A stretch of DNA of 9,295 bases, taken from NCBI GenBank assembly GCA_016844515.1, contig JAERMP010000121.1:1-9295 (forward strand). Direction: 5' to 3'. A model generated the notes under the pieces. The model was not told the DNA's origin. It saw only the letters and a program-made list of their open reading frames with translations, and did no database searches. This DNA is from Thermoleophilia bacterium. Its GTDB lineage: Bacteria > Actinomycetota > Thermoleophilia > Gaiellales > Gaiellaceae. Of this stretch, positions 2,450-8,404 are shown piece after piece (within the stretch, counting starts at the first letter, position 1; each line of letters starts with the position of its first letter). The position numbers and the translations under genes are program-made.

Positions 2450-2786
2450 CTAGAGGTCTTGATCCTCGGTATACGAGAGCAGGCGCTCGGCTAGCGCCCG
2501 CATCACCTTTCGCTCGACTCGTTGTGATGAGGGCGATCTCGCCGAAGAACTCACCAGCCTGCCGCGTGGCCAGGCGCTTCCCACCCTTCGTGACCTCCGC
2601 GACTCCGTCGACGATCACGAAGAACTCGCGGCCCAGGCTGCCCTCCTTGCAGAGAACTGTTCCCGCCTCGATCGTGAGATCCTCGGTCGCCCGCGCGAGC
2701 TCGCGCAGTTCCTTCTTGGACAGTCCCTCGAAGAGCGGTGCCCGCCCGAGCGCCTCGACCTTCACGTTTTGGCTGAAGAGCCGCAC
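2450..2786 (-). pseudogene. Cyclic-nucleotide-binding (Crp-like cNMP) domain protein, internally deleted and frameshifted
   Basis: The gene starts GTG at 2786 and reads MRLFSQNVKVEALGRAPLFE, then a typical single cNMP-binding domain: GTVLCKEGSLGREFFVIVDG, GKRLATRQAGEFFGEIAL. After EIALITT (about position 2521) this frame becomes meaningless and would continue as far as 2139, antisense to the EgtB-like gene. One frame over, the same DNA gives the expected C-terminus, VERKVMRALAERLLSYTEDQ, with a TAG at 2452-2450, only 23 nt from the convergent EgtB-like stop. The segment normally between these two halves, roughly 30 residues with the Arg of the phosphate-binding cassette, is missing. The deletion is not a multiple of three, so the product is broken and its cNMP pocket incomplete. 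An intact copy would be about 140 aa: a stand-alone cAMP sensor without a DNA-binding domain. Confidence 0.8.
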
Positions 2787-2816
2787 CAGGCGAGTCTATT
2801 CGTGGAGACTTGCATC

Positions 2817-4160
2817 GTGAAAGGCGAGACCCGGTACGCGAAGAGCGGCGACCTCCGTATCGCCTACCAGGTACACGGCGACGGCCCAATCGATCTCGTC
2901 TTCGCCCCCGGATACCTCTCCCACCTCGAGCAGAACCAGTGGTGGCCGGAGTACGCATCGTTCTTCGAGAAGATGGCGTCGTTCTCCCGGCTCATCGTCT
3001 TCGACCGTCGCGGCACCGGACTGTCGGATCGCATCTTGGCACTCGGCTCGTTCGAGGAGCTCATGGACGACATCGGCGTCGTGCTGGATGCAGTCGGGTC
3101 GGAGCGCGCCGCGCTTTTCGGCGGCGCCGAAGGCGGCCCCATGTGCATCTTGTTCGCAGCCACGTTCCCCGAGCGCACGTCGGCTCTCGTGCTCGGCGCC
3201 TCGTACGCCCGGCGGGGGTGGGCGCCGGACTATCCGTGGGGCCTCGACGAGGAAACGCAGCAGCGGATCCTCGACGGGTACGAAGAGCGGTGGGGAAGGA
3301 TCGGCTTCGGCGCGCGCGCGATCGCGCCCACGCTCGCCGATGACGAGCGATTCCAGGTCTGGTACGCCCAGGCGCAGCGCTTCTCGGGCACGCCCGCGTC
3401 CGCGCGCGAGTGGTTTCGGGTCACGATGGACATCGACGTACGGGATGTGCTCGCGGCGATTCGCGTCCCTACTCTGGTGATCCACCGCTCGGGAGATCGC
3501 GTCATTCCCGTTGAGTCGGGTCGCTACCTTGCCGAGCACATCCCCGACGCGAAGTACGTCGAGCTCCCTGGGCACGACCACTTTCCGTTCGTCGGCGACA
3601 TCGACGCGATCGTTGACGAGATCGAGGAGTTCCTCACGGGCTCACGACGCGTCCGAGAGCCGGACCGCGTCCTCGCGACGGTGCTCTTCACCGACATCGT
3701 CGGCTCAACCGAGCGTGCCGCGGAACTCGGCGACCGGCGGTGGACCGAGCTGCTCGCGGAGCATCATCGGCTGGTTCGAGCGGAACTCGAGCGCTTCCGG
3801 GGCAAGACGATTCGGATCGAGGGCGACGGGACGTTGTCCACATTCGACGGGCCCGCGCGCGCCGTGCGCTGTGCGTGCGCGATCCGAGATTCCGTTCGCG
3901 TGCTCGGGATCGAGATCCGTGCCGGGCTGCATACGGGCGAGATCGAGCTCGCTGAGACGGGAGTCGAGGGCATCGCCGTCCATATCGGCGCACGTATCGC
4001 CGCACTCGCTGGAGCAAGCGAAGTGCTGGTCTCCAGCACGGTCAAGGATCTCGTCGTGGGCTCGGGGATCGACTTCGCCGATCGCGGAACCGATGTGCTG
4101 AAGGGCGTGCCGGGCGATTGGCACGTTCACGCTGTCACCGATGCCGGCCCCGGCCGTTGA
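2817..4160 (+). CDS. Alpha/beta-hydrolase fused to class III adenylate/guanylate cyclase
   Basis: This 447-aa cytoplasmic two-domain protein is of a type common in Actinobacteria. Residues 1-275 form an alpha/beta-hydrolase domain (oxyanion region FAPGYLSHLE, FDRRGTGLSD, acid Asp227 in HRSGDRVIP, His255 in GHDHFPF). The nucleophile elbow, usually GxSEGG, is GGAEGG: Ala104, codon GCC at 3126-3128, replaces serine, so hydrolase activity is unlikely. Residues 284-440 form a class III cyclase domain with metal ligands Asp293 (LFTDIVGST) and Asp337 (IEGDGTLSTF), plus the VHIGARI and LKGVPGDW motifs of this subfamily. It should make cAMP or cGMP from ATP or GTP, perhaps with the dead hydrolase domain as a sensor. 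I place the start at GTG 2817 because GGAGA (2804-2808) lies 8 nt before it and homologous N-termini begin near ETRYAKSGD. An upstream ATG at 2769 would overlap the divergent cNMP gene. The two divergent starts are only 30 nt apart. Confidence 0.9.
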   Translation: MKGETRYAKSGDLRIAYQVHGDGPIDLVFAPGYLSHLEQNQWWPEYASFFEKMASFSRLIVFDRRGTGLSDRILALGSFEELMDDIGVVLDAVGSERAALFGGAEGGPMCILFAATFPERTSALVLGASYARRGWAPDYPWGLDEETQQRILDGYEERWGRIGFGARAIAPTLADDERFQVWYAQAQRFSGTPASAREWFRVTMDIDVRDVLAAIRVPTLVIHRSGDRVIPVESGRYLAEHIPDAKYVELPGHDHFPFVGDIDAIVDEIEEFLTGSRRVREPDRVLATVLFTDIVGSTERAAELGDRRWTELLAEHHRLVRAELERFRGKTIRIEGDGTLSTFDGPARAVRCACAIRDSVRVLGIEIRAGLHTGEIELAETGVEGIAVHIGARIAALAGASEVLVSSTVKDLVVGSGIDFADRGTDVLKGVPGDWHVHAVTDAGPGR

Positions 4161-4166
4161 CGGGAT

Positions 4167-4274
4167 TCAGCGCATGAGGGCCGCGGCCTCGGTGAGCACC
4201 TCGCCGAGAGCGCCGACGATCTCGTCGAACTCGGCCTGGCCCGCGACGAGCGGCGGCGAGATCCAGGAACGGGG
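4167..4274 (-). pseudogene. C-terminal remnant of a class III (PLP) aminotransferase
   Basis: The minus strand from 4274 to the TGA at 4169-4167 encodes WISPPLVAGQAEFDEIVGAL and ends EAAALMR. The SPPLV...EFDEIV pattern is the typical end of fold-type I class III aminotransferases. An in-frame TGA at 4277-4275 cuts it off, and nothing upstream resembles the catalytic domain with its PLP lysine. About 35 residues of a protein normally near 430-460 aa remain. It is convergent with the cyclase gene, with stops 6 nt apart, so the original gene probably filled this place before deletion. Another gene's tail is possible but less likely. Confidence 0.6.
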
Positions 4275-4328
4275 TCACTCTCTCGCGTCCGGGCCGCCGC
4301 GCTCGACGGCCTCCGTGAGCCGCGAAGC

Positions 4329-4418: not shown

Positions 4419-4646
4419 TTAGGGCGAGCAGCCAGACGCCTCGGACGCAAGGATGAGATCGATCATGTTGCCCAGCCCTTGGTCCGACGCCTTCAGCATT
4501 CCCGCGAACCCGGTGGAGCTGACGTGAAGCATGTTGCACGCTCCGGGGCTGGCCGGCGCCGCGGCCGCTGGCATGGCCGAAAAGGCAACCGCGGCCGCCG
4601 CGAACACAAAGACCAGCGATATCGTCGCCATCAGCTTCTTGCTCAT
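4419..4646 (-). CDS. Small exported two-cysteine peptide, family not recognised
   Basis: This is a 75-aa protein. The N-terminus has Lys3-Lys4, a hydrophobic stretch (about 5-23) and an alanine-rich end, AMPAAAA, typical of a Sec signal peptide with cleavage after Ala30. The mature part would be about 45 residues with exactly two cysteines, Cys37 near its start and Cys73 three residues from the end, which suggests a disulfide closing the whole peptide. The middle, GMLKASDQGLGNMIDLILAS, looks amphipathic and helical. There is no canonical lipobox before Cys37 (PGAC). The ATG at 4646-4644 overlaps the upstream stop as ATGA, and GGAGGAGA sits 6 nt before it on the minus strand, so this start is well supported and high translation is likely. 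It is the second gene of a two-gene unit driven from the box at 5000-5017. I do not recognise the function; a surface or secreted structural or signalling peptide is possible. Confidence 0.82.
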   Translation of the reverse strand: MSKKLMATISLVFVFAAAAVAFSAMPAAAAPASPGACNMLHVSSTGFAGMLKASDQGLGNMIDLILASEASGCSP

Positions 4647-4939
4647 TTGATCTCTCCTCCTGTGGTCTGATTCGGCTTCCCGGCCGGGGTGGCCGAGACC
4701 GCCATCTGCATGAGGGGCTGGAGCGTGCGGATTCCGTCGCGGGCGCCGGCGGCCGCGCGGGCGGCCTCGCCGGCCCGGGCGGGGTCGAACGCCCAGCCCT
4801 CGAGCACGAGTCCCGCCGTCTGCTCGTCGCGTAGGAGCGAGACGCTGGTGACGCCGAGCTCGGCGAGCCGTTCGAGCGCGGCCGGCTGCAGCGCCGGCTC
4901 TTGGTCGGAGACCGGGAATAGCACCAGCACCATCGCCAC
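4643..4939 (-). CDS. Small soluble protein of unknown function coupled to an exported peptide
   Basis: This is a 98-aa protein with no signal peptide or membrane segment. It starts MAMVLVLFPVSDQEP and contains alternating strand and helix patterns: LERLAELGVTSVSLL, then EQTAGLVLEGWAFDP, then an alanine-rich helix and a tail LQPLMQMAVSATPAG. The pattern would suit a small ferredoxin-like or dimeric alpha-beta-barrel fold, but I cannot assign a family. The start is GTG at 4939, 5 nt after GGAG (minus strand 4948-4945); an in-frame ATG at 4933 is 11 nt away and is the alternative. The stop TGA overlaps the ATG of the exported peptide gene. It is divergent from the LuxR-type regulator, with 143 nt between the starts, and is the first gene after the shared promoter box. 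Confidence 0.75.
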   Translation of the reverse strand: MAMVLVLFPVSDQEPALQPAALERLAELGVTSVSLLRDEQTAGLVLEGWAFDPARAGEAARAAAGARDGIRTLQPLMQMAVSATPAGKPNQTTGGEIK

Positions 4940-4975
4940 CTCGGCTCCTTTCTGTGGTCGGGATTCGTGGCGGGG

Positions 4976-5017
4976 AGGCTAGGTCTGGCCGCCGGTGCCG
5001 ATCATCGGGGAAATCCC
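4976..5017 (-). promoter_or_regulatory. Promoter and putative regulator box of the small-gene operon (copy 1)
   Basis: Read on the minus strand, an 18-bp box GGGATTTCCCCGATGATC (5017 to 5000) is followed after 17 nt by CTAGCCTC, with -10 TAGCCT at 4981-4976. Transcription would begin near 4969, leaving a leader of about 30 nt with AAAGGAG. The same arrangement, with identical spacing, precedes the cupin gene (7839-7880). The box also sits about 65 nt upstream of the divergent regulator start at 5083, so it could control that gene too. That it is a protein-binding site is inference from the repeat. Confidence 0.6.
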
Positions 5018-5082
5018 TCGCCTTCGCACCCGCGCCCCTTACTTCTTGGCCGAAACGCCGTACGCTCTGCGAGGGGTGAGAC

Positions 5083-7854
5083 GTGTTCGTCGGTAGAGCG
5101 GGAGAGCTGGAAGCGCTGTCCGAGATCGCGGCGACGAGCGCGGTGGGCCCGGCCGCCGTCGTCGTCGTCGGCGAGCCGGGAGGCGGAAAGAGCCGGCTCC
5201 TGGCGGAGGCGCGCACCCGGACGGGGCTTCCGCACTCGTTCGCGGTCGTCGGCTACGAGCCCGAGCGGCAGGTGCCGCTCGCGGCGGCGGCGGGACTGCT
5301 GCGCGCGCTAAGTGAGGTGCCGCAGCACGGATCGCACCTCGAGGCCCTCCTCTTCGGCGCGCACGAGGCGACGCCGCTCGAGCCGGTGCGCGTATTCGAG
5401 GCCGCGCATCGCGCGCTCCGTGCGCTCGAGCCCGCGCTGCTCGTCGTCGACGACCTGCAGTGGGTGGACGAGCTCTCGCTGGCGCTCTGCCACTACCTGA
5501 TCCGCGCCGCCCGCGACTCGGGACAGCGTCTCGTCATCTTCGCGGCGACTCGACCCGGCGGCAGCGGCGTTTCGCTCGCCGATGCGCTGCCGCCCGAGCG
5601 TGTCAGCTGGATCGAACTCGCGCCGTTGAGCCGGGAGGAGGGGATCGAGCTCGTGCTCGGCCTCGACGCGGGGCTCGATCGCGCTTTCGCCGGCGGGCTG
5701 TGGGAGAAGGCAAAGGGATCGCCGTTCTGGCTCGAAGCGCTCGCCCGGGCCGGCGGTATCGCCGCGGGCCTCCGCCAGGTTCTGACGGCGCAGCTGCGCG
5801 GAGCCGGCGCCGACGCGGCGACCCTTCTTGCCCTGCTGGCGGTCGCGGGTCGCCCGGTCTCCGTGACGGACGCGGCACCGCTCGCGGAGTGGCCGCTCCC
5901 GCGGCTGGAAGCCGCGCTCCGCGCGCTCCTCGATCGCGGCCTCGTTGTCGAAGCCGGCGGCACCGCGCGGCTGACCCACGACCTGATCCGCGAGGCTGCA
6001 GTCGCGGACCTTCCCGACGAGGTCCGCCGGCGCATCCATCACCGCCTCGCCGAGCAGCTCGAGCTCGACGCCGGGTCCGACCTGCGGCTACTCCGGCAGG
6101 CGCTCGAGCACCGCCGGGCTGGGGGCGGGATGCCGACCCTCGATCTCGCATTGCGACTTGCCCGTTCGCCGCACCGGAAGCTGCTCGGCCCGGAGGGGCT
6201 CCGCCTCCTTGCCGGCATCGCCGACGAGGCCGATCCGTTCGGCGCCGACTCGTTGGCGTTGCAGGAGGAGGTTGCGTCGCTTGCCACTGAGCTCGCCGAG
6301 CACGAGGAGGCTCTGGCACGGTGGTCGCTCGTCGCGGACCGGGCCGCGGCGCCGCTGCACCGCGCCTCGGCGCTGCTCGCGGCGTCGAAGGCGGCGTACG
6401 CGCTCGCCCGGGCGGAGGATGCGCGCGAGCTGCTCGCGCGAAGCCGGGAGATCGGAGCGGCCGACGACGTGCTCGAGCTCGAGCAGGGCACGCACGACGC
6501 TGAGATCCGACTCTGGCTCGAGCAACGCGCAACGGAAGGCCCTGTGCTGGCGCGCGAGGCGGTCGCCGCCGCGAACCGTCTCGCGGCTCGTGCCGGAGGC
6601 GTGAGCGCGCTCGGTGCCCGCGCGCGCCGCGCGTACCTCGACGCCCTGCAGCTCGAGTACGAGGCTGCGGTCCAGGAAGCTGATCCCGAGACGATGCTGC
6701 GTAACGCGGTGGCGCGAGAGGTCGCCGCCCGCGGGTTCGATCTCGCGTCGTATCTCGACGCGTCGCTCGGGAGGTGCACGGCCTTGCGCTGGGCGGGTCG
6801 CGTCCGGGAGGCGGCGCGACAGTCGCGCTGGGCCTGGACCGAGGCGAATCGGCACGTCTTCCCCCGTCTCGCAGTCGATGCCGGCGAAGCCCTCGCGGGC
6901 TCGCTCCACGTCGTTGGGGAGCTGGCCGAGGCGGAGCGGATCGTTCGCGAGACGAGCGAGCTCGCGGCGCGCGCCGGCGACGTGCCGCGCGCCCGCCATC
7001 GCGTCGCACGGGTCGCTTGCAACATCGCTCTAGAGCGGGGCCAGCCGTGGGCGGCGCTGGAGCGGCTCGAACGTGAGACCGCCGAGGAGCCGAATGAGCA
7101 CCAGCGGATCGCCTTTCACGGCGATGTGGCGGTCTGGACCGCCCGGCTGAAAGGCCCGGCGTCGGCGGCGACCGTCCGGGAACAGGTGGCGGCGGGCCGC
7201 GCGGACGCGGAGAAGGTGGGCTGCCCACGCTGCGAGGCGGAGCTGCTCCTGCTCTCGGCCGAGGCGCTCGCACGAGTCGGCGAGCGCGAGCAAGCGCGGC
7301 GGCTGCTGGGGGCCTGGGATGGTCGCGGCGGCCACGCGAACGAGCTGGCCGGGCTGGTCCGGTTGCGCGCGGGCGCGCTGACCGAGGAGGATGCGGGCGC
7401 CCGCGCCGCGCAGCTGGAGGCCGTGCTCGCGGCCGCGGAGGGATCGCCGTTCCGGCTCGAGGCGCTTTGGGCGCGGCTCGACCTCGGGCTGGCGCTGGCC
7501 GATGCCGGCAACGACCGGGCGGCGGGGGAGCTCAAGCGCGCGGCCGCCGTTGCCGAAGAACTCGGCGCGGGGACGGTCGAGAAGCTCGCGGAGCGCGGGC
7601 TTCGTTCCCTCGGCGTGCGCACGTGGCGACGCGCGTCAGCCGGAGCGCCGCTGACCAAACGAGAGCAAGAGGTCGCGCGACTTGTCGCCGGGGGCGCGAC
7701 CAATCGGGAGATCGCACAGGTGCTGTTCCTCTCGCCGAAGACGGTCGAGCGTCACGTCTCGAACGTGTTCAAGAAAGTCGGAGTTCGCAACCGGGCCGAG
7801 CTCGCCTCGCGGTTGAGGGATCTCGCGGGCGAACATGCGGGAAATGCCCGATGA
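5083..7854 (+). CDS. Large ATP-binding LuxR-family transcriptional regulator (LAL/MalT-like)
   Basis: This 923-aa protein has an N-terminal AAA/STAND ATPase, a long helical repeat region and a C-terminal LuxR DNA-binding domain. Walker A is GEPGGGKS (30-37) and Walker B is LLVVDDLQWVDE (119-130). A winged-helix-like part (LLDRGLVVEAGGTARLTHDL) lies near 285-305. From about 320 to 840 are alanine-, leucine- and arginine-rich helical hairpins that look like degenerate TPRs, where ligands or partners usually bind in this class. Residues 857-915 are the helix-turn-helix: LTKREQEVARLVAGGATNRE then KTVERHVSNVFKKVGVRNRA. The start is GTG at 5083, with GAGGGG at 5071-5076 as ribosome binding site. 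Length is normal for LAL proteins. No kinase-receiver domain is present, so regulation is probably by ligand and ATP. Matching promoter boxes lie in front of both adjacent units, one overlapping the 3' end of this gene, which makes them the prime candidate targets. Confidence 0.9.
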   Translation: MFVGRAGELEALSEIAATSAVGPAAVVVVGEPGGGKSRLLAEARTRTGLPHSFAVVGYEPERQVPLAAAAGLLRALSEVPQHGSHLEALLFGAHEATPLEPVRVFEAAHRALRALEPALLVVDDLQWVDELSLALCHYLIRAARDSGQRLVIFAATRPGGSGVSLADALPPERVSWIELAPLSREEGIELVLGLDAGLDRAFAGGLWEKAKGSPFWLEALARAGGIAAGLRQVLTAQLRGAGADAATLLALLAVAGRPVSVTDAAPLAEWPLPRLEAALRALLDRGLVVEAGGTARLTHDLIREAAVADLPDEVRRRIHHRLAEQLELDAGSDLRLLRQALEHRRAGGGMPTLDLALRLARSPHRKLLGPEGLRLLAGIADEADPFGADSLALQEEVASLATELAEHEEALARWSLVADRAAAPLHRASALLAASKAAYALARAEDARELLARSREIGAADDVLELEQGTHDAEIRLWLEQRATEGPVLAREAVAAANRLAARAGGVSALGARARRAYLDALQLEYEAAVQEADPETMLRNAVAREVAARGFDLASYLDASLGRCTALRWAGRVREAARQSRWAWTEANRHVFPRLAVDAGEALAGSLHVVGELAEAERIVRETSELAARAGDVPRARHRVARVACNIALERGQPWAALERLERETAEEPNEHQRIAFHGDVAVWTARLKGPASAATVREQVAAGRADAEKVGCPRCEAELLLLSAEALARVGEREQARRLLGAWDGRGGHANELAGLVRLRAGALTEEDAGARAAQLEAVLAAAEGSPFRLEALWARLDLGLALADAGNDRAAGELKRAAAVAEELGAGTVEKLAERGLRSLGVRTWRRASAGAPLTKREQEVARLVAGGATNREIAQVLFLSPKTVERHVSNVFKKVGVRNRAELASRLRDLAGEHAGNAR

Positions 7855-7880
7855 TCCGAAGGGTGCTCGGCCACTAGCGT
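7839..7880 (+). promoter_or_regulatory. Promoter and putative regulator box of the exported cupin gene (copy 2)
   Basis: GGGAAATGCCCGATGATC (7839-7856) is followed after 17 nt by CTAGCGTC, giving -10 TAGCGT at 7875-7880. The first part overlaps the last codons and stop of the regulator gene. Compared with copy 1, 15 of 18 box positions and 7 of 8 positions around the -10 agree, with identical spacing, while the spacer has diverged. The leader to the ATG at 7922 would be about 35 nt. Confidence 0.6.
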
Positions 7881-7921
7881 CGCCTCCGCTGTTCAACCCA
7901 CAGGAGCGGAGGTAAACCGCG

Positions 7922-8404
7922 ATGAAGAGGCTGATTCTCATCTTGTCAACGGCTGCTGCCCTCGCCGTTGTTGGCGTCGCCGTGGCGTCGCACGTGACAC
8001 CGGCCGACCCGGCCACGGTGCCGACCGGGTTCCTGGTCGCCCACAACTCGATCGGAGACGTACCGGTCTCGGCGCTCGCGCGCGCCGTCACGCCCAACGG
8101 TGCCGACGTGTTCATCCAGCACGTGCGGCTTGGCGCGAACATGGCCACGGGCTGGCACACGCATCCAGGGCCGGCCATCGTGACCGTCGTGAAAGGCAAC
8201 CTCACGTTCGAGGACGCAGCCGCCAACAGGTGCCAGGACACCACCTACACCGCGGGTCAGGGATTCGTGGATCGCGGCTTCGGACACGTCCATCGGGCGA
8301 TCGCGGGCGCGGATGGCGTCGACTTCTACGTCGTCTACATCCTCCCGCCGGGAAGTCCGACCCACGTCATCTCGGCAACTCCGCCGGAGGAGTGCACCTC
8401 GTAA
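7922..8404 (+). CDS. Exported single-domain cupin protein
   Basis: This is a 160-aa protein. Lys2-Arg3, a hydrophobic stretch (4-22) and AVAS form a Sec signal peptide, so it acts outside the membrane. The mature part is a small cupin barrel. Motif 1 is GWHTHPGPAIVTVVKG (77-92), with His79 and His81 as metal ligands. The usual glutamate three to four residues later is absent: PGPA is found instead. Motif 2 is GQGFVDRGFGHVHRA (112-126), giving His122 or His124 as a further ligand. A metal may therefore be held by three histidines. The family includes enzymes and ligand binders, and the substrate cannot be told. ATG at 7922 has GGAGGT (7908-7913) 8 nt before it. It is transcribed alone, between the shared promoter box (7839-7880) and a hairpin terminator. 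Cys104 and Cys158 could form a disulfide. Confidence 0.87.
   Translation: MKRLILILSTAAALAVVGVAVASHVTPADPATVPTGFLVAHNSIGDVPVSALARAVTPNGADVFIQHVRLGANMATGWHTHPGPAIVTVVKGNLTFEDAAANRCQDTTYTAGQGFVDRGFGHVHRAIAGADGVDFYVVYILPPGSPTHVISATPPEECTS

Follow-up and report, generated by a model that had tools for sequence, protein, structure and literature searches.

Which protein acts on a composite promoter-like element that occurs twice, on opposite strands, within one locus of a Thermoleophilia bacterium? The window, meaning the entire stretch of 9,295 nucleotides (nt) analyzed here (contig JAERMP010000121.1), encodes a LuxR-type regulator of 923 amino acids (aa) between the two copies. One copy precedes ORFs (open reading frames) predicted to encode a 98-aa protein (p98) and a 75-aa exported peptide, and the other precedes an ORF predicted to encode an exported cupin-like protein; this gene layout, already given in a preliminary description of the locus, matched the ORFs read here. 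The regulator, a predicted large ATP-binding LuxR-family (LAL) protein, very probably reads a MalT-style operator at the -35 position and activates p98 together with variable exported proteins.

Composite elements in the window

As read from the sequence, GGGATTTCCCCGATGATC (5017-5000) was followed on the minus strand by a 17-nt spacer and CTAGCCTC (4982-4975), and GGGAAATGCCCGATGATC (7839-7856) was followed on the plus strand by a 17-nt spacer and CTAGCGTC (7874-7881). The two elements agreed at 15/18 positions in the box, 7/8 in the -10 region, and 4/17 in the spacer. Both elements, their spacing, and the agreement of box and -10 region were as previously described, but the full spans were 5017-4975 (-) and 7839-7881 (+), with ends at 4975 and 7881 instead of 4976 and 7880. 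The TGA of the second box (7852-7854) is also the stop codon of the regulator, an overlap absent from that description. Only these two matches were found within the window at ≤3 mismatches with a composite pattern that had been derived from the two sites themselves before the search. Transcription of the p98 unit and the cupin unit was predicted to start at approximately 4969 and 7887, respectively.

Domain composition of the regulator

The window regulator is, by its predicted domains, a LAL protein of the MalT-like STAND type. Its N terminus matched the nucleoside triphosphatase model AAA_16 above the Pfam cut-off (E = 7.3e-16), with GEPGGGKS as Walker A and LLVVDD as Walker B motifs, and its C terminus (residues 856 to 909 of 923) matched the GerE helix-turn-helix (HTH) model (E = 2.8e-18), both as expected of a LAL protein; the recognition helix reads LSPKTVERH. 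No Pfam model of the TPR type matched the middle region, and one relative (P0049) carried PF14559, which we take to be a TPR model. Only AAA and HTH models matched at E ≤ 0.001, with no autoinducer-binding domain among them, and on this ground an acyl-homoserine lactone quorum-sensing LuxR regulator was dropped as a candidate. The protein is not MalT proper, scoring 32.4 bits against the cut-off of 537 for the NCBIfam equivalog PRK04841. Searches of solved structures by sequence returned HTH matches only, and searches of plasmids returned no match to the regulator at E ≤ 1e-60.

Conservation of the box at orthologous loci

Comparative scans were made in genomes of relatives. A profile search of genome contigs with a 21-member regulator alignment recovered at least 79 loci, from which closer relatives may be missing. 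The core GGGANNTNNCCGATGA lay ≤230 nt from the regulator 3' end, at ≤2 mismatches, in 20 of the 22 loci with a usable 3' end, and with 3 and 4 core mismatches in the other two; loss of the box from orthologous loci, which had been named as a finding that would speak against a regulon, was therefore not observed. At more distant LAL loci, where the end of the match was partly not the end of the gene, the core was found at 2 mismatches in 1/52 (L036). Random windows from the same 22 loci contained it at ≤2 mismatches in 11/412 cases, some of which are perhaps true second boxes.

Of 47 regulators placed in a quick tree, the 25 with a box fell inside one supported clade of 26, the remaining member being a tandem copy (L006b) directly upstream of a box-bearing regulator. 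Rows labeled Actinomycetota and Chloroflexota were intermixed in this tree, which may reflect either gene transfer or misbinned assemblies.

Specificity of the box

A looser pattern (2 mismatches) matched in 128/299 genomes of the class of L026, where the reversed control also matched often; these matches were mostly noise-like, and a stricter pattern was therefore adopted (box, N18, STARCSTC, 1 mismatch, with the reversed pattern as control). The strict pattern yielded 14 sites in 13/970 genomes of three classes, and the control yielded none. By class, it occurred in 7/177 genomes (8 sites; class of L005), in 1/394 (class of L018, in the genome of L014 and not in that of L018 itself), and in 5/399 (class of L026), the sets of 394 and 399 being samples of larger groups. 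All 14 sites adjoined a regulator of the same LAL family. Five of them (in G383, G387, G410, G313 contig 21, and G167) were new relative to the regulator search, and each of these lay between a regulator and a p98 gene. Such rarity and placement are not those of a housekeeping promoter or of randomly positioned matches, the possibility that the preliminary description had left to be checked.

When mismatches were relaxed to ≤3 in the 22 family genomes, sites with 0 to 2 mismatches were present in 12 genomes (13 sites), all at family loci; the 11 stray matches elsewhere all had 3 mismatches, compared with 5 for the reversed control. With an earlier version of the pattern, 5 of 7 genomes had a single site, which lay at the locus, and the other two had no site; the control had no matches. 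In viruses, 8 stretches matched the core plus a loose -10 region, none with a regulator or p98 match.

Linkage to p98 and locus architecture

A search that started from p98 found 29 genes in 26/576 genomes: 22 in 19/177 (one split over two rows and one with an internal stop) and 7 in 7/399. All 29 adjoined a family regulator and a box at ≤3 mismatches (4 for the box of L007). In the window and in L020 and L021, p98 is divergent from the regulator and has its own box in front, and the box at the regulator 3' end points toward an exported protein; that divergent p98 carries its own box indicates that the box follows the target and not just the end of the regulator gene. In L022, the three target genes of the window stand in a row behind a single box. 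The exported products differed between loci and included GACNM peptides (the family of the 75-aa peptide), the cupin, and other small exported families; that of L018, from the cultured Geodermatophilus sp. YIM 151500, was dirigent-like (E = 1.9e-4, under the curated cut-off). As to the presence of p98, L005 is limited by the end of its contig.

Further arrangements were observed at individual loci. L006 (5206-10775) contains a tandem pair of family regulators with two boxes downstream of it; an exported protein stands behind the first box, and p98 with another exported protein behind the second. In L006, L015, and L144, p98 was repeatedly followed by a second exported family (NGQVxANGQNH...YGLExAHHGPDxGxPGKxDGCY), whose copies in L006 and L144 matched no Pfam model at E ≤ 0.1. 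The regulator of L022 (5290-7915) was recovered in two frames as two tblastn pieces, with a frameshift in either the gene or the assembly.

Anatomy of the predicted operator

Across 32 tabulated sites, some of which had been collected with the pattern, G1, C10, and G12 to A16 were invariant, followed by G3 (31/32), G2 (30/32), C11 (28/32), C9 (26/32), and A4 and T7 (25/32 each). The hexamer ending at position 16 was CGATGA in 28 sites and GGATGA in 4 (L003, L014, L019, and L027). A TANNNT sequence lay at position 36 or 37 in 27/32 sites. With the transcription start placed 7 nt after the -10, this hexamer ends approximately 33 nt before the predicted start, a distance at which motifs of the MalT type are located. 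Positions -5 to 0 resembled GGATGM (≤2 mismatches) in 18/32 sites, compared with 11/32 at the next best offset, and among the 8 sites with a stretch that does not code for the regulator, 5 had this resemblance.

Covariation of the recognition helix with the predicted operator

At 25 loci, regulators with Arg in the recognition helix (S-R-K-T) were associated with G/C at position 5 of the box, and those with Pro were associated with A/T; the regulator of L026 is an example of the Arg type. The residue and the base were picked after inspection of these 25 loci and then tested on other data. Among 83 metagenome relatives that could be scored, with the position 5 base deduced from the C-terminal residue of the regulator, Arg occurred with G/C in 18/18 and non-Arg residues occurred with A/T in 60, with G/C in 4, and with an ambiguous base in 1 (60/64 classifiable). 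With metagenome and genome loci joined, Arg accompanied G/C in 37/38 and non-Arg accompanied A/T in 72/76. Independence was assessed on a quick tree from which the HTH had been omitted and in which some long branches meet: over six independent residue switches the base followed in 5.7 on average, was opposed in 0, and was unchanged in 0.3 (median P = 0.031; range, 0.031 to 0.125). The window regulator has Pro, and both window boxes have A/T at position 5; the second boxes of L006, L020, and L021 also fit the residue of their own regulators. This covariation is independent evidence, and the best of the computational kind, that the neighboring regulator reads the box. From it, and from the conserved box and its position and linkage, we infer binding and activation by the regulator.

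Weighing the proposed regulation

Several observations count against operator reading and activation by the LAL protein. The boxes at L015 (3 core mismatches) and L007 (4) are degenerate, and five sites (L004, L009, L010, L012, and L013) have no TANNNT at position 36 or 37, so that the spacing in the window is usual and not universal. The full box plus -10 pattern (3 mismatches) missed the locus box in 10 of the 22 family genomes (5 without any match and 5 with stray matches only), the cause being a weak core or a deviation in the -10 part or in the spacing. No p98 was detected beside the box at L004, L008, L018, and L027, and in L019 a p98 frame with a decayed appearance (6124-6460) lies between the box and the exported peptide. 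The covariation has exceptions (4 Pro with G/C and 1 Arg with A/T, the latter at L180), its base was deduced indirectly in the metagenome relatives, and 37 of the 120 relatives listed could not be scored. When the test was run from the base side, 10 independent changes were matched in 5.5 cases and unmatched in 4.5.

Among alternative explanations, the least improbable is that binding of the LAL protein to the box leads to repression of the units. Repression is compatible with everything computed, and SCO6993, itself a LAL, is called a negative regulator in the title of one publication. The end of the box adjoins the -35, however, a placement shared by the motif of the MalT-like activator in Actinoplanes, and we consider repression unlikely. 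Somewhat less likely still is that the box serves an alternative sigma factor or some other regulator as promoter, with the LAL gene a mere passenger. The element does lie upstream of genes and usually includes a -10-like part, as such a promoter would, but close matches in the scanned genomes (0 to 2 or 0 to 1 mismatches) were all at loci of the LAL family, the box tracked a single LAL clade, and position 5 changed along with the recognition helix of the LAL protein in independent switches, all of which favor the neighboring regulator as the reader of the box.

Conservation at the 3' end could also be due to a C-terminal peptide of the regulator, G-x-[AP]-R, and not to a function of the DNA. 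This peptide ends 69 of the 120 relatives listed, and the TGA of the box is the in-frame stop codon of the regulator in 16/23 loci. The stop codon precedes the box in L004, L005, L008, and L009, however, and the three divergent boxes (window, L020, and L021) lie outside the regulator gene, from which conservation of the box as DNA was concluded; the second box of L006, situated between genes, likewise leaves the peptide explanation very improbable. An origin of the repeated box by chance or by recent duplication in the window, where only two copies are present, can be dismissed, since the best 18+8 pairing of the upstream regions (22/26) was equaled in 0/3,000 dinucleotide shuffles (maximum, 21), the spacers are alike at only 4/17 positions, and the box recurs in loci labeled as two phyla, which is also in keeping with the earlier claim of conserved function in place of recent duplication. 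A terminator or RNA element was dropped as a candidate on account of the divergent occurrence of the box outside the gene; no RNA search was made.

For activation by the LAL regulator, the favored explanation, the following sequence of events is proposed. The two window boxes would be operators of the regulator encoded between them. Upon sensing a signal, the regulator in its ATP form would assemble, like MalT, on the box that closely precedes the -10 and would recruit RNA polymerase to the unit of p98 and the 75-aa peptide and to the exported cupin unit. Proteins that modulate MalT exist, and by analogy our best guess is that p98 may act in the cytosol as a partner of the regulator or as an element of feedback on it; the exported proteins would, as a similar best guess, be the changing output of the regulon. 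The preliminary description had proposed a self-contained regulon in which the LuxR protein switches on small exported proteins. Its regulatory side was supported by the linkage between box and regulator and by the covariation; its target side has to be amended, in that the most constant target is the predicted cytosolic p98 and the exported products vary.

Predicted products and other genes in the window

The window p98 matched no Pfam or NCBIfam model, and across 17 family members only weak Pfam matches were obtained (E = 0.013 or worse, in up to 3). Its structure model (predicted local distance difference test [pLDDT], 88.7) had a ferredoxin-like fold with generic matches only; the family was left unassigned because Foldseek E values were no better than 5.5e-3 and Z scores no better than 6.6. 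Neither p98 nor the cupin matched solved structures by sequence at E ≤ 1. The GACNM peptides had 295 database relatives at E = 0.01, the best 120 being mostly unnamed or hypothetical, and weak Pfam matches (E = 0.015 or worse); a fold model of the exported peptide was discarded (mean pLDDT, 55.5). The cupin-like protein had 977 relatives at E ≤ 0.001, and many of the best 120 were named cupin by their source. One relative (P0177) carried PF07883, and the window copy had no Pfam match at E ≤ 0.001.

Features of the locus, by position in the window
Feature	Position	Strand	Basis or remark
Box 1, GGGATTTCCCCGATGATC, predicted operator core of the p98 unit	5000..5017	-	sequence
Predicted -10 TAGCCT, unit 1	4976..4981	-	TANNNT at element position 37
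Candidate weak upstream half-site AGGCGA (3 mismatches to GGATGM)	5018..5023	-	inferred
Box 2, GGGAAATGCCCGATGATC	7839..7856	+	sequence; overlaps regulator 3' end
Predicted -10 TAGCGT, unit 2	7875..7880	+	sequence
Candidate weak upstream half-site ACATGC (2 mismatches to GGATGM)	7833..7838	+	inferred
LAL regulator, 923 aa	5083..7854	+	AAA_16, GerE, Walker A/B
p98, 98-aa predicted cytosolic protein, predicted ferredoxin-like fold	4643..4939	-	ORF, structure model
75-aa exported peptide, GACNM family	4419..4646	-	ORF; start overlaps p98 stop (ATGA)
160-aa exported cupin-like protein	7922..8404	+	ORF, named relatives

Four further features were observed at lower positions in the window. A 427-aa protein (1143-2426, +) combines DinB_2 and FGE-sulfatase domains, an architecture that is presumably that of EgtB-like iron enzymes. 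A gene with a cyclic-nucleotide-binding domain (2450-2790, -) is apparently broken, with the cyclic-nucleotide-binding frame and a plausible C-terminal stretch in different frames. A 463-aa fusion (2769-4160, +) joins an alpha/beta hydrolase to a class III guanylate/adenylate cyclase domain, and a short frame (4166-4290, -) resembles, by the impression given by its translation, a C-terminal aminotransferase remnant.

Relation to known systems and implications

The closest parallels are with MalT-like systems. For MalT (ACSP50_3915) of Actinoplanes sp. SE50/110, the motif is a palindrome, TCATCC-5nt-GGATGA, in front of 17 starts, and its GGATGA end lies 34.4 ± 1.0 nt before the start; the large maltose-regulated genomic region is assumed by the authors to have moved between species (PMC7567727). 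The window locus resembles that system in that a LAL/MalT-like regulator sits in the region under its control (here predicted), the targets are mostly of unclear function, and the motif overlaps the -35 (here by its predicted position). It differs in its operator, GGGAnnTsmCCGATGA, with a possible direct-repeat half-site and one or two boxes per locus; no match to the Actinoplanes palindrome (TCATCC-N5-GGATGA) was found in the window at ≤2 mismatches.

For E. coli MalT, the box given in PMC7567727 is GGGGA(T/G)GAGG, and cooperative binding of MalT to its boxes after inducer-driven multimerization is described in PMC4381067. The window regulator is like E. coli MalT in its STAND ATPase, its C-terminal DNA-binding domain, and a box adjoining the -35, and in L021 the flank and box start read GGATGAGG, resembling the E. 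coli box. It is unlike E. coli MalT in its low equivalog score, and no maltose genes were recognized in the window. The large ATP-binding LuxR architecture is shared with Streptomyces LALs (SCO0877, SCO7173, SCO6993, and the LALs of antibiotic clusters), as these are described in the literature; the one Streptomyces LAL in the tree (L041) fell outside the box-bearing clade.

To our knowledge, most LAL regulators are without known targets. The family is called poorly studied in one abstract (PMC3282765). Literature searches, including searches with the letters of the box, returned no description of this regulon among the matches listed. A LAL regulon is of a kind already known; the operator of this clade, its putative specificity residue, and the two unnamed protein families look new within these searches.

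A broader and rather doubtful proposal is that regulator, operator, p98, and small secreted protein might form a compact mobile signaling cassette of Actinomycetota and Chloroflexota, in which p98 would serve the regulator specifically as a sensor or for feedback and the secreted peptide, which bears cysteine, would be a message or effector for like cells; a single helix residue and a single base would have switched specificity on several occasions, insulating neighboring cassettes. Within the LAL family itself, both an operator and a specificity residue are now predicted for a whole clade, together with a target gene family dedicated to it, and the predicted coregulation would be the first handle on p98 and the GACNM peptides, for which no Pfam or NCBIfam family above chance was found.

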